From an uncultured Actinomycetes bacterium (lineage in GTDB: Bacteria; Actinomycetota; Thermoleophilia; Solirubrobacterales; Solirubrobacteraceae), in contig CALAQT010000016.1 in NCBI GenBank assembly GCA_937888775.1, positions 1 to 7,327 of the forward strand: a stretch of 7,327 nucleotides of DNA, in the 5' to 3' direction. Positions 2,785 to 7,327 of the stretch are shown here, one piece after another (position 1 is the stretch's first letter; every line of letters begins with the position of its first letter). Under the pieces are notes generated by a model that saw only the letters and a list, made by a program, of their open reading frames with translations, ran no database searches and was not told the origin of the DNA. The position numbers were made by a program, and so were the translations under genes.

Positions 2785-3336
2785 TTACCGGAGCTTGGCG
2801 CTGAACGTGAACGACATCGGCCCGCACGTGGAGCCGGCCACCTGCGGGTCGCTGAACGTCTGCTTATAGCTGATCTTGCCGGTCGCGAGCTTGGCGGTCT
2901 TGAACCGCCCGGTGATGCTCGTCGCGGTGACCGTTTTCTGACCTTGGACCACGAACGTCGACCGGGCGCCGGTGACCGAGAAGCTCCCTGTCTGGCCGAC
3001 CTTGACCCTACCGACGAATTGGATCGTGTCCTTCAGCGTGAATGGGTCCCCGCGGAAGCCGCCACCGCCGAAACAGCCGACCGTCGAGTAACGGAAACTG
3101 ATCAGGGCGGTGCCGTTGCTCGACACCCGGAAGCTCACCGGCGCGTGGAAGCCGGCAACCGCGGGTTCCGAGGTAAAGCCGGAGTACTTGTTACCCGGCT
3201 TCGGGTGCGCAGCGAGCGCGTCGGCGGCCACCGCGAACGTCAGCAGCGTCGCCGCGGCTGCGACCGACACTCGACGTGTGCTCAGATGATGCCCGCCCCT
3301 GCCAGCCTGTCCGGGACGGGTGATTCCCAGCCTCAT
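2785..3336 (-). CDS. Small secreted protein, paralog of the gene at 444-1004
   Basis: A 183-residue exported protein of unknown function. The signal peptide has a basic n-region (including STRR), a core VAAAATLLTFAVAADA and an ALA|AHP cleavage site near residue 42. The mature protein starts AHPKPGNKYSGFTS and continues with APVSFRVSSNGTALISFRY. Two cysteines, in TVGC and TCGP, match those of the paralog, as do GFxAPVxFxVSxxGTxL, a TGxFxxAKxAxGK block and a C-terminal CGPxxxTFxxK. The repeated short strands suggest an all-beta fold with one disulfide. The ATG at 3336 is well supported: AAGGAG lies 7 bases upstream. It is the first gene of a probable leftward transcript with the MFS exporter. 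Two related exported proteins flanking a pump suggest a linked cell-envelope role, but that is inference. Confidence 0.78.
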   Translation of the reverse strand: MRLGITRPGQAGRGGHHLSTRRVSVAAAATLLTFAVAADALAAHPKPGNKYSGFTSEPAVAGFHAPVSFRVSSNGTALISFRYSTVGCFGGGGFRGDPFTLKDTIQFVGRVKVGQTGSFSVTGARSTFVVQGQKTVTATSITGRFKTAKLATGKISYKQTFSDPQVAGSTCGPMSFTFSAKLR

Positions 3337-3889: not shown

Positions 3890-4483
3890 TCAGTTGACCC
3901 CTTGCGCAAACGTGGCGTTGGATTCGTAGCCGGCGAAGGTGACGCTGCGGGCGAACGGGAGCTGGGTCTTGACGATCACGCAGTAGGTTCGGGTCCCGTC
4001 GACACTCGGGACGCACGTGCGGTAGATGCTCCCCGGTTGAATCGTGAAGGTGTCCAGGTGTGTCACGTTCTCCCTGAAGGGAGCCGGAGCCCGATCGCCG
4101 ATGAACGCCTCCGCCCGCGTGATCGCGTCCTGCAGCGCTCGCTGATGGGCGATCACCGTGGGACGGTGCAGCAGCCCGGCGGCCAACAGCACTGCCGCCA
4201 CCGCGACGACGGCATACGTGCCGCCATAGTTGCGCGCCACCAGCACGGGCAGATCGCTTCGGAAACGTCGCAGCACGGCGCCCAGCGGTCGTGAGAGCAA
4301 CAGCACCGCCAGCACGTTGAGCACGAGCGCCGCGATCACGCCGCCGGCGACCGACTGGGTCTCCCCCGCCTGCGGCAGCGCATGTCCCGTCACGCCGTCA
4401 AACGCCGTCGCCGCGACGAACGTCGGCCACAACCAGGCGCCGCGCTGGCGCCAGCGCAGACGGGCGAGCCAAGCACCTTCCAT
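3890..4483 (-). CDS. Membrane protein with three TM helices and an extracytoplasmic domain; probably truncated
   Basis: A protein of unknown function, 197 residues from the ATG at 4483. It begins MEGAWLARLRWRQRGAWLWP, a basic cytoplasmic start, followed by hydrophobic segments near residues 15-30 (AWLWPTFVAATAF), 45-70 (VAGGVIAALVLNVLAVLLL) and 80-105 (YAVVAVAAVLLAAGLL). The remaining ~90 residues are soluble and probably outside the cell; they contain two cysteines (YRTCVPS, TYCVIV), possibly a disulfide. An in-frame ATG at 4564 would add 27 residues, but these are polar and neither start has a clear ribosome-binding site; 4483 is preferred because the MEGAW start is typical of a membrane protein. 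The frame ends at a TGA after ...NATFAQGVN in the middle of the apparent soluble domain, and coding continues beyond it (see 3566-3889). It is transcribed away from the E1 alpha gene. Confidence 0.6.
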   Translation of the reverse strand: MEGAWLARLRWRQRGAWLWPTFVAATAFDGVTGHALPQAGETQSVAGGVIAALVLNVLAVLLLSRPLGAVLRRFRSDLPVLVARNYGGTYAVVAVAAVLLAAGLLHRPTVIAHQRALQDAITRAEAFIGDRAPAPFRENVTHLDTFTIQPGSIYRTCVPSVDGTRTYCVIVKTQLPFARSVTFAGYESNATFAQGVN

Positions 4484-4621
4484 TCGATCAAGGCTACCCC
4501 CGGCCGGCGAGGTGAGGTCTTGCTTTGGGCGGAGGCGTCCCTCAGTGACCGTCACGGCGGACATGGGTCTGAGGGTCTCGCTCAGTGATCGCGGGCGCGG
4601 GCGCGGACCCAGCGGGTGGGG

Positions 4622-4627
4622 TAAGCT
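4622..4627 (+). promoter_or_regulatory. Candidate -10 box for the E1 alpha-E1 beta-E2 operon
   Basis: TAAGCT fits TANNNT and is preceded by a G-run, a common look for actinobacterial -10 elements. It would start transcription near 4634, with a leader of about 97 bases. No recognisable -35 lies 17 bases upstream. Confidence 0.3.
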
Positions 4628-4637
4628 CGGCGTCCCG

Positions 4638-4676
4638 ATCGAGGGGCCGAGCCGGAGATCCCGGAGCGGCTTCGAT
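4638..4676 (+). promoter_or_regulatory. Predicted stem-loop in the E1 alpha leader
   Basis: Paired blocks nest in order: ATCGA (4638-4642) with TCGAT (4672-4676), GCCG (4646-4649) with CGGC (4667-4670), and CCGG (4652-4655) with CCGG (4661-4664), around a 5-base loop AGATC. The interruptions are GGG opposite T and a symmetric AG/AG mismatch, giving 13 Watson-Crick pairs. It may be a leader-RNA structure or, being symmetric, a protein-binding site on DNA. No known riboswitch is recognised. Confidence 0.3.
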
Positions 4677-4716
4677 GAGCGATACCGGATGGAGATCCCG
4701 ACCGGTCCAGAAACGA

Positions 4717-4722
4717 AAGGGA
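4717..4722 (+). promoter_or_regulatory. Ribosome-binding site deciding the E1 alpha start
   Basis: AAGGGA lies 8 bases before the ATG at 4731. An in-frame ATG at 4689 lacks a comparable site. Confidence 0.5.
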
Positions 4723-4730
4723 AGCGAGAG

Positions 4731-5825
4731 ATGGCGACGCATACGGCTCAGCCGGCCGCCGCGGACAGCGGCTCAGTCGGGCACCTACAGCTCGAGGACC
4801 GCGTCCGTCTGCTTGAAGCGATGCTGCTGATGCGAGGGCTCGAAGCCCGCACGATGAGCCTCTACCGTCAGGGCAAGGTCCCAGGATCCTTCTATGACGG
4901 GTTCGGACAGGAGGCCGTGTCGGCGGGCGCGGCGTACGCGATGGCGGCCGGGGACCGGCTCTGCATCCTGCACCGTGACCTGGCGGCGCACCTGATTCGC
5001 GGCGTGCCGCCGACCCGGATCCTCGCCCAGTACCTGGGCCGTGAGGCAGGCGTGACGCGCGGGCGCGACGGCAACGTGCACTTCGGTGACCGACATCTCG
5101 GGTGCGTCGGGATGGTCTCGATGCTGCCGGACATGATGCTGGTCGCAGCCGGGATGGCGATGGCGTTCAAGTTGCGCGGCGAGCGGCGCTGCGCGCTGAC
5201 CTGGTTCGGTGACGGCTCCACCTCCCGCGGAGACTTCCACGAGGCGATGAACTGGGCCGGCGTGCAGAAGCTGCCGGTCATCTTCGTGCTGGAGAACAAC
5301 CAGTACGCGTACTCGACGCCGGTGAAGATGCAGTATGCCGTCGACCCCGTACAGCGGGCGGCGGCCTACGGCCTGGCGGGGGTGACGGTGGATGGCAACG
5401 ACGCGGAGGCGATGTTCGAGGTCACGCATGAAGCGCGCGAGCGTGCGCTGGCGGGTGACGGCGCGACGTTGATCGAGGCCGAGACGATGCGGATGCACGG
5501 TCACGCCGCCCACGACGACATGAAGTACGTGCCCTCCGAACAGGTCGAGGAGTGGCGCAAGCGTGACCCGATCGAGCGCCAGGAGGGTCGGCTGCGCGAG
5601 GCGGGGGTCGATGTCGACGGGGTGCGAGCCGCGGTGCAGGCCGAGATCGACGCCGCCGCCGAGGAGGCACTGGGGGGCCCGATGCCCGATCCTTCCTCCG
5701 CGACGACGGGCGTGTTCTGCACGGGTGAGGCGGAGCCGCTGGGCGATGGGCAGGCGCCGTGGAGTGGCTTTGCGGCCGGGTCGGAGGCCTCCGAGTCCGG
5801 GGCGGCCTCGGAGGTGGACGCGTGA
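4731..5825 (+). CDS. 2-oxo acid dehydrogenase E1 component, alpha subunit (PDH/acetoin/BCKDH type)
   Basis: With the beta subunit it forms the thiamine-diphosphate-dependent E1, which decarboxylates a 2-oxo acid and passes the acyl group to the lipoyl arm of E2 in the cytoplasm. The 364 residues include the ThDP/Mg motif starting GDG at 160-162 and ending NN at 189-190 (LENNQYAYSTP), the early YDGFGQEAVSAGAAYAM and HRDLAAHLIRG blocks, GREAGVTRGRDGNVH, a VDGND block near 220-224, and MHGHAAHDDMKYVP near 255-267. The last ~50 residues are a low-complexity Gly/Ala/Ser/Glu tail ending EVDA. The HGHAAHDD...YVP...RDPIER region resembles PDH/acetoin-type E1 alpha, so the substrate is left open (pdhA, acoA or bkdA are all possible). 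The ATG at 4731 has AAGGGA 8 bases upstream. Its TGA shares its A with the ATG of the first mini-cistron. Confidence 0.93.
   Translation: MATHTAQPAAADSGSVGHLQLEDRVRLLEAMLLMRGLEARTMSLYRQGKVPGSFYDGFGQEAVSAGAAYAMAAGDRLCILHRDLAAHLIRGVPPTRILAQYLGREAGVTRGRDGNVHFGDRHLGCVGMVSMLPDMMLVAAGMAMAFKLRGERRCALTWFGDGSTSRGDFHEAMNWAGVQKLPVIFVLENNQYAYSTPVKMQYAVDPVQRAAAYGLAGVTVDGNDAEAMFEVTHEARERALAGDGATLIEAETMRMHGHAAHDDMKYVPSEQVEEWRKRDPIERQEGRLREAGVDVDGVRAAVQAEIDAAAEEALGGPMPDPSSATTGVFCTGEAEPLGDGQAPWSGFAAGSEASESGAASEVDA
5788..5814 (+). promoter_or_regulatory. Predicted hairpin masking the Shine-Dalgarno before the tandem starts
   Basis: CCTCCGAG (5788-5795) is the exact reverse complement of CTCGGAGG (5807-5814), an 8-bp stem with an 11-base loop. 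The 3' arm includes GGAGG, the probable ribosome-binding site for the ATG at 5825. The 5' arm is also part of a perfect 14-bp palindrome (TCGGAGGCCTCCGA, 5781-5794), so a competing small hairpin is possible. It lies inside the E1 alpha coding region; ribosomes finishing E1 alpha would open it, a usual basis for translational coupling. Confidence 0.4.
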
Positions 5826-5866
5826 TGGCCACGCTCACCTACCTCCAAGCGAGGGTGGACGCCTGA
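5825..5866 (+). CDS. 13-codon mini-cistron 1 (MATLTYLQARVDA) between E1 alpha and E1 beta
   Basis: Its ATG overlaps the TGA of E1 alpha by one base and its own TGA overlaps the next ATG by one base. GGAGG sits 10 bases upstream. The first nine residues equal the start of E1 beta and the last four (RVDA) resemble the end of E1 alpha (EVDA), so it arose from the tandem duplication. It is likely translated by reinitiating ribosomes; whether the peptide has any function is unknown. Confidence 0.5.
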   Translation: MATLTYLQARVDA

Positions 5867-5907
5867 TGGCCGCGCTCACCTACCTCCAAGCGAGGGTGGA
5901 CGCCTGA
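5866..5907 (+). CDS. 13-codon mini-cistron 2 (MAALTYLQARVDA) between E1 alpha and E1 beta
   Basis: This second relay cistron is made by the middle repeat unit. It differs from the first by Thr to Ala at residue 3. GAGGG lies 10 bases before its ATG, and its TGA shares its A with the E1 beta ATG at 5907. Its role, if any, is probably to hand ribosomes on to E1 beta. Confidence 0.5.
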   Translation: MAALTYLQARVDA

Positions 5908-6872
5908 TGGCCACGCTCACCTACCTTCAAGCGATCTCATCCGCCCTGCGAGACGAGCTCCGGGCCGACGAGCGCGTGCTGCTGATGGGCGAGGACATCG
6001 GCGTGTTCGGCGGTGCCTTCAAGGTGACCGACGGCTTCGTCGAGGAGTTCGGTACCGATCGCGTGATGGACACCCCGCTGGCCGAGTCGGCAATCATCGG
6101 GTGCGCCGTGGGGGCCTCCGTGGTCGGGATGCGGCCCGTGTGCGAGATGCAGTTCGCCGACTTCATCTCCTGCGGCTTTGACCAGCTCGTCAACGTCGCG
6201 GGCAGGATGCACTACCGCCAGGGCCTGGCTGTGCCAATCGTCGTCAGGTTGCCCTCGGGGGGCGGATTCTCCGGCGGCCCGTTTCACTCGCAGAATCCCG
6301 AGGCGCTGTTCATGCACTCGCCCGGGATCAAGGTGGTGGCGCCGTCGACCGCCGAAGATGCCAAGGGCCTCCTGCACTCAGCGATCCACGACCCCAATCC
6401 GGTCCTGTTCATGGAGCACAAGCATCTGTACCGGCGTGTGAAGGGCGAGGTGCCCGAGGGGGTGTTCGAGACCCCGTTCACCGCCCGGGTGGCGCGGCCG
6501 GGATCCGATCTGGTGGTGATCGCCTACGGGGCCATGGTGCACGTCGCGCTGGAGGCGACCTCGGATCTTGATGGCGCGTCGATAGAGGTGCTGGATCTTC
6601 GCTCGCTGGTCCCGCTCGATGAGGACGCGATCCTGGACTCGGTCGCCCGCTGCTCGAAGGTGGTGATCGTCGACGAGGCGAACATGACCTGCGCCGCCGG
6701 CGCCCAGGTGGCGGCACTGATCGCGCAGCACGGCTTTGAGGATCTGGACGGTCCGGTCGTCCGGGTAGCGACGCCCGACTCGCCGATCCCGTTCTCACCG
6801 CCCTTGGAACAGGTGGTGCTTCCCAGCGTCGAACGTGTCAAGGAGGCGTGCCGTGAGCTCCTCGCGTACTGA
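5907..6872 (+). CDS. 2-oxo acid dehydrogenase E1 component, beta subunit
   Basis: This is the partner of E1 alpha in the alpha2-beta2 ThDP enzyme; 321 residues is the normal length. The N-terminal pyrimidine-binding domain has GEDIGVFGGAFKVTDGF (28-44), RVMDTPLAESAIIG (52-65) with Glu60 as the residue expected to activate ThDP, EMQFADF (80-86) and FHSQNPEALF (126-135, with the conserved His127). HSPGIKVVAPSTAEDAKGLL and DPNPVLFMEHKHLYR (162-176) follow. The C-terminal transketolase-like domain starts near residue 190 (GSDLVVIAYGAMVHVA) and includes the DLRSLVPLDE block. The EHKxxYRxxKGEVP stretch recalls branched-chain 2-oxo acid E1 beta proteins such as Bacillus BfmBAB, while E1 alpha looks more PDH/acetoin-like, so no symbol is assigned. 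The start at 5907 is the third copy of the repeated start region; GAGGG lies 10 bases upstream. Its end overlaps the E2 gene by 20 bases. Confidence 0.94.
   Translation: MATLTYLQAISSALRDELRADERVLLMGEDIGVFGGAFKVTDGFVEEFGTDRVMDTPLAESAIIGCAVGASVVGMRPVCEMQFADFISCGFDQLVNVAGRMHYRQGLAVPIVVRLPSGGGFSGGPFHSQNPEALFMHSPGIKVVAPSTAEDAKGLLHSAIHDPNPVLFMEHKHLYRRVKGEVPEGVFETPFTARVARPGSDLVVIAYGAMVHVALEATSDLDGASIEVLDLRSLVPLDEDAILDSVARCSKVVIVDEANMTCAAGAQVAALIAQHGFEDLDGPVVRVATPDSPIPFSPPLEQVVLPSVERVKEACRELLAY
6840..6846 (+). promoter_or_regulatory. Strong ribosome-binding site for E2, inside the E1 beta gene
   Basis: AAGGAGG, a near-perfect anti-16S match, lies 6 bases before the GTG at 6853. This fixes the E2 start despite the 20-base overlap with E1 beta. 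Confidence 0.75.
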
Positions 6873-7327
6873 GGGTGTTGGTGCCGGCGCGGGTTCTGGC
6901 GGCGGGGCGGATGCGGGCGCCGGAGCGGGTGCGCTGACCGACGTGACCATGCCGCAGATGGGTGTGTCGGTGGTCGAGGGCACCGTGGTCGGCTGGCGAG
7001 TGCAGGCCGGCGACCGGATCGAGGCCGACCAGACGATCTGCGAGATCTCCACCGATAAGATCGACACCGAGGTCCCGGCGCCCGTCAGCGGCGTTGTCAC
7101 CGAGATCCTGGTCGCGGTTGAGGCGACGGTCGAGGTGGGGGTTGTGTTGGCACGGATCGCGACCGGCGTCGCCGCTGACCTTGAGGGCCCAGCCGGCGAG
7201 CCGGGCAACGGCCGGTCGCAGCCCGAGGTATCCGAGGGCGAGGCTGGGTCGAGGTCCAGGGCTCGTGTCGGTTCACCGGCGCCCGGCCGCGAGGCCGGAT
7301 CAGCCGGGGGTGGTGTTAGCTCACCGG
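6853..7327 (+). CDS. 2-oxo acid dehydrogenase E2 (lipoyl-bearing acyltransferase), N-terminal part
   Basis: The gene runs off the right edge; 158 codons are visible. E2 is the core acyltransferase of the complex: its lipoyl-lysine arm takes the acyl group from E1 and transfers it to CoA. A GTG start is fixed by AAGGAGG 6 bases upstream. Residues 1-30 are an unusual Gly/Ala-rich leader ahead of the lipoyl domain. That domain runs from about 31 (VTMPQMGVSVVEGTVVGW) to 110, with the lipoylated lysine at Lys69 in EISTDKIDTEVPAP. After it comes a Gly/Pro/Glu/Ser-rich linker. The peripheral-subunit-binding and catalytic domains should lie beyond the window. The order E1 alpha-E1 beta-E2 supports PDH, acetoin or branched-chain complex membership. 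The domain alone could also belong to another lipoyl protein, but a linker after a single lipoyl domain fits E2. Confidence 0.9.
   Translation, partial: MSSSRTEGVGAGAGSGGGADAGAGAGALTDVTMPQMGVSVVEGTVVGWRVQAGDRIEADQTICEISTDKIDTEVPAPVSGVVTEILVAVEATVEVGVVLARIATGVAADLEGPAGEPGNGRSQPEVSEGEAGSRSRARVGSPAPGREAGSAGGGVSSP

Follow-up and report, generated by a model that had tools for sequence, protein, structure and literature searches.

By analogy, the closest known system to the repeat array described here is the mycobacterial interspersed repetitive unit (MIRU), in which tandem short units lie between co-directional genes and a small open reading frame (ORF) in each unit ends on the next start codon. 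An arrangement of the same kind was found at the junction of the genes for the E1-alpha and E1-beta subunits of a 2-oxoacid dehydrogenase in an uncultured Actinomycetes bacterium of the family Solirubrobacteraceae; the 7,327 nucleotides analysed (contig CALAQT010000016.1, forward strand) are referred to as the window, and all positions are counted within it. In section 11 of a 2025 review (PMC12548453), MIRUs are presented as repeats that appear to be mobile and to insert at start codons, their ORF coupling to the next gene at a spacing of -4, likely with little effect on the expression of that gene; the spacing in the window array is -1. The units at senX3-regX3 are given as 77 and 53 bp in PMC4213456 and, by our own arithmetic, both lengths leave a remainder of 2 on division by three (2 mod 3), as does 41, the unit length found here. 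For M. tuberculosis, PMC3635867 gives an estimate of 2.7e-3 changes in MIRU copy number per locus per year.

Two further systems are related. Pairs of genes coupled by termination and reinitiation at TGATG or ATGA have the same -1 overlap as the window array, and short overlaps of this kind are reported in PMC10666635 to be enriched among subunits of heteromeric complexes. The pairs tested in that paper have one junction each, whereas the window has three in series with two mini-frames in between. According to section 6 of the same paper, moving the second start from -1 to +38 nt in E. coli abolished reinitiation in one gene pair and lowered it by 80-90% in two others, and according to its section 7 the last 15 nt of the upstream gene suffice for coupling. 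In bicistronic (mini-cistron) design, a short first cistron supplies the gene behind it with ribosomes (PMC12548453, section 11). The mini-frames of the window use the same short-cistron trick, but in a form that is natural, internal and doubled, where bicistronic designs are engineered and have one leader cistron. In a limited literature search, no paper was found on a native stop/start junction duplicated in tandem.

The window array consists of three 41-bp units across the E1-alpha/E1-beta junction (5813-5935, copies beginning at 5813, 5854 and 5895), and is probably a near-neutral, local-duplication variant of coupled repeat arrays. Tandem Repeats Finder (TRF) reports it at 5813-5934 with a period of 41, 3.0 copies, 95% matches and a score of 223; the runner-up among the nine arrays found in the window scores only 60. 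Copy 1 (5813..5853, plus strand, as are all features of the junction) comprises the tail of E1-alpha, a TGATG and codons 1-9 of E1-beta; its Shine-Dalgarno (SD) sequence, GGAGGTGG, is at 5810-5817. Copy 2 (5854..5894) has the SD-like sequence GAGGGTGG at 5851-5858, and copy 3 (5895..5935) holds the real start of E1-beta. The ATGs of the three units are at 5825, 5866 and 5907. The first opens mini-cistron 1 (5825..5866; 13 codons, MATLTYLQARVDA), whose stop shares one base with ATG 5866, and the second opens mini-cistron 2 (5866..5907; 13 codons, MAALTYLQARVDA), whose stop shares one base with the E1-beta ATG at 5907. The stop/start overlap of 1 or 4 nt that marks coupled gene pairs is thus present at three junctions, all TGATG with one base shared, and these chain E1-alpha, two 13-codon frames and E1-beta. 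A preliminary description had proposed the tandem triplication of the junction and the unbroken chain of one-base overlaps; both are borne out. Two details in it needed correction: the first base of the array is 5813 rather than 5814, and the units do not carry the same SD, as GGAGGTGG precedes ATG1 and GAGGGTGG precedes both ATG2 and ATG3.

Of the 41 positions, four are not alike in the three copies: 5822 (G/C/C in copies 1, 2 and 3), 5831 (A/G/A), 5845 (C/C/T) and 5853 (G/G/T). Four differing sites are unlike the false expansion of a single unit and so speak against an assembly artefact, which we regard as very improbable; furthermore, a 123-bp array would fit within a read, if reads of 150 bp were used. 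At the left site copy 2 has the base of copy 3, and at the two right sites it has those of copy 1; the base at 5872 occurs in copy 2 alone. This pattern of sharing fits an array that had two copies, diverged, and then expanded in register, and from it we infer a two-step growth from one to two to three copies. The starting state would be a single native TGATG overlap, as in most of the nearest relatives. In the first step, E1-beta would have been rejoined, after its codon nine, to the tail of E1-alpha; in the second, the unit would have been copied in register once the first two copies had diverged. At the joint between copies stands CGAG|GGTGG, to be compared with CGGAGGTGG in the E1-alpha tail and CGAT in E1-beta; this fits either a 40-bp duplication with one additional G or a 41-bp duplication followed by two base changes. 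Chance is ruled out for the repeat itself, but not for its length modulo 3.

The same junction was compared in relatives found by a search of reference genomes with the E1-beta protein, which confirmed 150 relatives; the best 80 loci, mainly from Solirubrobacterales and with E1-beta identities of up to 90%, were taken. These loci were not dereplicated, and two of them (L021 and L023) share a strain number. After one locus lacking the E1-beta N-terminus, two lacking an upstream E1-alpha and 13 with both subunits in a single frame had been set aside, 64 unfused junctions remained, none of which contains the array. The gap between the two genes could be given for 58 of these, the other six lacking a start codon where the alignment would place it: it is -1 in 24, -4 in nine, -8 in nine, -13 in two and +1 to +27 in 14, so that 44 of the 58 are negative. 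Among the 10 loci with at least 86% identity, eight have a gap of -1, one of -4 and one of +1. These tight overlaps suggest that translational coupling is the ancestral mode at this junction. A 26-base pattern spanning the joint, allowing up to three mismatches, was found in none of 232 genomes of the order, and a joint pattern was likewise absent from the 80 E1-beta loci. Viral contigs gave no match, and the plasmid collection gave a single one, 58 bases long, to a Nonomuraea record. With the array in 0/64 junctions and the joint pattern in 0/232 genomes, the array appears as a rare, real 82-bp insertion, private to its lineage as sampled.

These comparisons also bear on the possibility that the array arose when a mobile element of the MIRU type inserted into the overlap. 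The geometry is the same: units in tandem, 2 mod 3 in length, with a short ORF that is coupled to the gene after it. However, MIRUs are dispersed and unrelated to the site where they stand, whereas the window unit is built from the flanking genes' own sequence and the joint pattern was absent from all 80 loci and 232 genomes, which sample relatives only. Insertion of a mobile element is therefore highly improbable.

The preliminary description had further argued that copy number could change without harm to either enzyme. This follows from the geometry: both proteins are intact because the first copy keeps the E1-alpha stop and the last copy keeps the E1-beta start, and any tandem duplication across the junction spares both proteins, whatever its unit length. 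It had also held that 41 bp is exactly the length needed, a claim that stands for the unit-by-unit chain but is weakened by the fact that one length in three would serve. In silico, two copies of a 41-bp unit give a frame of 13 codons whose stop falls on the E1-beta start, two of a 42-bp unit give an in-frame extension of E1-beta, and two of a 40-bp unit give a 104-codon frame that runs out of frame into E1-beta. With three copies, the 40-bp unit gives a 26-codon frame stopping on the E1-beta start and the 42-bp unit an extended E1-beta of 349 codons, so that 40- and 42-bp units keep the link as well. The exact unit length is weak evidence, with a prior of one in three for the unit-by-unit chain and less constraint still at three copies. 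The 41-bp length may have mattered at the two-copy stage, because gaps of +38 nt cut reinitiation strongly in the E. coli pairs of PMC10666635. A simple rule can be stated for one unit added at a -1 or -4 overlap: lengths of 2 mod 3 keep the coupling through a mini-cistron, those of 0 mod 3 lengthen the second protein, and those of 1 mod 3 break the link. The MIRU units of 77 and 53 bp obey the 2 mod 3 case.

Three units also place E1-alpha and E1-beta in one shared frame, in which a single TGA and 27 sense codons separate the subunits; the frame 4731-6872 has just two stops, at the ends of E1-alpha and of E1-beta. Read-through of the first stop would then give a fused E1, and among the 77 loci having both subunits, 13 carry them in a single open frame. 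The shared frame is, however, an arithmetic outcome of three units, and with no sign of read-through we give this possibility hardly any weight. The fused loci themselves (L060, L064, L066-L068, L070-L073, L075 and L077-L079) are labelled Candidatus Actinomarina in 11 cases, OCS155 cluster in one and Chryseobacterium gleum in one.

The account that we favour, with moderate confidence, is a local two-step duplication of the native junction in which a relay couples the two subunits, the peptides are by-products and the effect is near-neutral or slight. A ribosome would stop at the end of E1-alpha, restart at ATG1, stop on ATG2 and restart, then stop on ATG3 and restart into E1-beta. The relay is possible because 41 is 2 mod 3. 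By analogy with the published behaviour of overlapping genes, it would keep an 82-nt insertion from uncoupling the subunits. The reporter work in sections 6 and 7 of PMC10666635 makes such a relay plausible as the likeliest route to E1-beta. The two mini-cistron peptides would be by-products, and the array would be near-neutral or would change E1-beta output only slightly. Similar arrays at other gene starts in one relative (L006 and L240, see below) also speak for this account. Three reinitiation steps in a natural chain would offer a clean test of the efficiency of repeated ribosome restart on very short frames.

The initiation signals of the three copies differ. Duplex energies with the anti-SD sequence come to -14.2 kcal/mol for the SD of ATG1 and to -8.3 for those of ATG2 and ATG3; in relatives (44 hand-picked of the 64 junctions) the median is -10.25, with 31 of 44 at or below -8.3. 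Copy 1 is predicted to fold into a hairpin (5805-5850; -20.7 kcal/mol, z -3.16) whose loop holds the ATG and one of whose arms holds the SD; no such hairpin is found in copy 2 (z 0.46) or copy 3 (-12.8, z -0.52), and the array as a whole has no unusual structure (z -0.94). A conserved hairpin at this place was considered and rejected: none of the 44 relatives checked has one as strong and their folds are dissimilar, for which reason that of copy 1 is treated as incidental. E1-beta now starts at a weaker, more open site, and the strong, closed site serves mini-cistron 1, a change that could either raise or lower E1-beta output.

The same signals lend some credit to a silent, neutral duplication, in which the mini-frames are hardly translated and E1-beta is initiated de novo in copy 3. 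That copy has an SD and weak structure while copy 1 is locked in its hairpin, and 13 of the 44 relatives manage with an SD weaker than -8.3. Set against this are the strong SD that stands before ATG1 and the negative gaps in 44 of 58 relatives, suggesting ancestral coupling; we consider a silent duplication rather unlikely. Several observations weigh against the relay and its proposed history. De novo starts at ATG3 could feed E1-beta with no relay at all. Structure just 3' of a stop is reported in section 7 of PMC12548453 to accompany poorer coupling, so that the strong hairpin of copy 1 counts against an efficient first step. Distance effects in PMC10666635 are pair-specific at shorter gaps, hyfH-hyfI having retained 60% at 14 nt. 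Chance alone would give a length of 2 mod 3 in a third of cases, and the inferred two-step history depends on four sites.

Similar arrays were searched for elsewhere. A scan for stop/start motifs in tandem copies behind an open frame of 100 codons covered 2.4 Mb from five relatives' genomes together with the 80 loci. In the 2.4 Mb, all 11 rows with a tandem identity of at least 0.75 have periods that are multiples of 3. In the 80 loci, the only period that is not a multiple of 3 among the matches listed is that of L006, from genome G005, where the E1-beta/E2 junction is duplicated at 3927-4019 with a 53-bp period and 37 of 40 bases alike; from GTG 3947 a frame of 18 codons runs as far as the E2 start, GTG 4000, which it overlaps by four bases. 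A wider scan for repeats of at least 30 nt and at least 85% identity took in 3,068,423 bases, including masked stretches, from the survey, the window, the 80 loci and L231-L250. When rows from the two masked contigs were dropped and double listings merged, 13 distinct arrays with a period not divisible by 3 remained, and by eye a gene start lies inside three of them: those of the window, L006 and L240.

The L240 array (995-1069 of L240, minus strand) is also from G005 and consists of 23-bp units before a RidA-family gene (Ribonuc_L-PSP). GTG 1044 and GTG 1021 open 8-codon frames that are chained by 4-base GTGA/ATGA overlaps to ATG 998, and GTG 1069 opens a 24-codon frame with the same end point. 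This array is in a leader, opposite a divergent reading frame as judged by eye, and not between operon genes; the three closest homologues have a single start at that place. It was also considered as a dispersed repeat, and this was rejected: three matches were found in one of 12 genomes, two of them being the array itself and the third, with two mismatches, appearing coding-like by eye.

All three start-containing arrays (41, 53 and 23 bp) have periods of 2 mod 3, against four of the 10 others (Fisher p = 0.12). This enrichment is a lead and not a result, for the cases are too few and a single genome (G005) supplies two of the three arrays. The recurrence of start-spanning arrays in a relative is the part most worth following. 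It might be conjectured, very tentatively, that start-spanning duplications recur in Solirubrobacterales and that those of 2 mod 3 are kept as slippage-adjustable chains of reinitiating mini-cistrons that set downstream expression. If true, these would be a home-grown, non-mobile counterpart of MIRUs, able to arise de novo from any overlapping junction.

The corresponding proposal for the window, made in the preliminary description, was that unit number tunes the E1-beta:E1-alpha ratio, and an adjustable tuner under selection would agree with the remainder common to the three arrays, with a copy number that seems to have changed at least twice, and with the estimated pace of MIRU change in M. 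tuberculosis. We find it improbable. None of the relatives examined carries the array, the comparison of periods (p = 0.12) draws two of its three start-containing arrays from one genome, and once three copies exist the link would survive with other unit lengths too. An alpha2beta2 E1 is moreover expected to want its subunits at 1:1. As the SD of E1-beta is weaker than that of copy 1 and a neutral accident suffices, the tuning claim was not upheld.

A TRF survey of the 2.4 Mb, which used a crude gene caller, gave nine rows that lie where a gene ends beside another on the same strand. Six have periods divisible by 3, and in the other three (14, 22 and 20 bp) no start codon is repeated, as judged by eye. 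Separately, a 20-bp intergenic tandem repeat with TTAGGGT..CCTAA-like palindromes was observed in G067:C1 (block L171-L190, about 198301-198340) and is by eye perhaps an operator; we take it to resemble iron-regulator boxes.

The window holds the start of a 2-oxoacid dehydrogenase operon with the order E1-alpha, E1-beta, E2. The E1-alpha gene (2-oxoacid/pyruvate dehydrogenase type; 4731..5825, plus strand; 364 codons, stop TGA at 5823-5825) matches Pfam E1_dh PF00676 (E=2.2e-64). It scores 252.9 bits against NCBIfam TIGR03181, under the model cut-off of 411.35; since the NCBIfam pyruvate-dehydrogenase models match under cut-off, pyruvate is no more than a candidate substrate of the dehydrogenase. 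The E1-beta gene (5907..6872, plus strand; 321 codons) matches Pfam Transket_pyr (E=3.2e-40) and Transketolase_C (E=7.1e-32). The gene for E2, a lipoyl acyltransferase with a Biotin_lipoyl match (PF00364, E=2.5e-22), begins at GTG 6852 within the 3' end of E1-beta and is open at the window edge (6852..7327, plus strand). No site was found in 4400-7000 by a scan for sigma-70-like promoters, which says little for a GC-rich actinobacterium, and Rfam gave no match at gathering score in the window. Elsewhere in the window, two minus-strand genes (444-1010 and 2785-3336), with no Pfam match at 0.001 and no NCBIfam match at 0.01, encode related proteins that are 39% identical over 145 amino acids; they flank a gene for an MFS transporter, and their N-termini are signal-peptide-like by eye.

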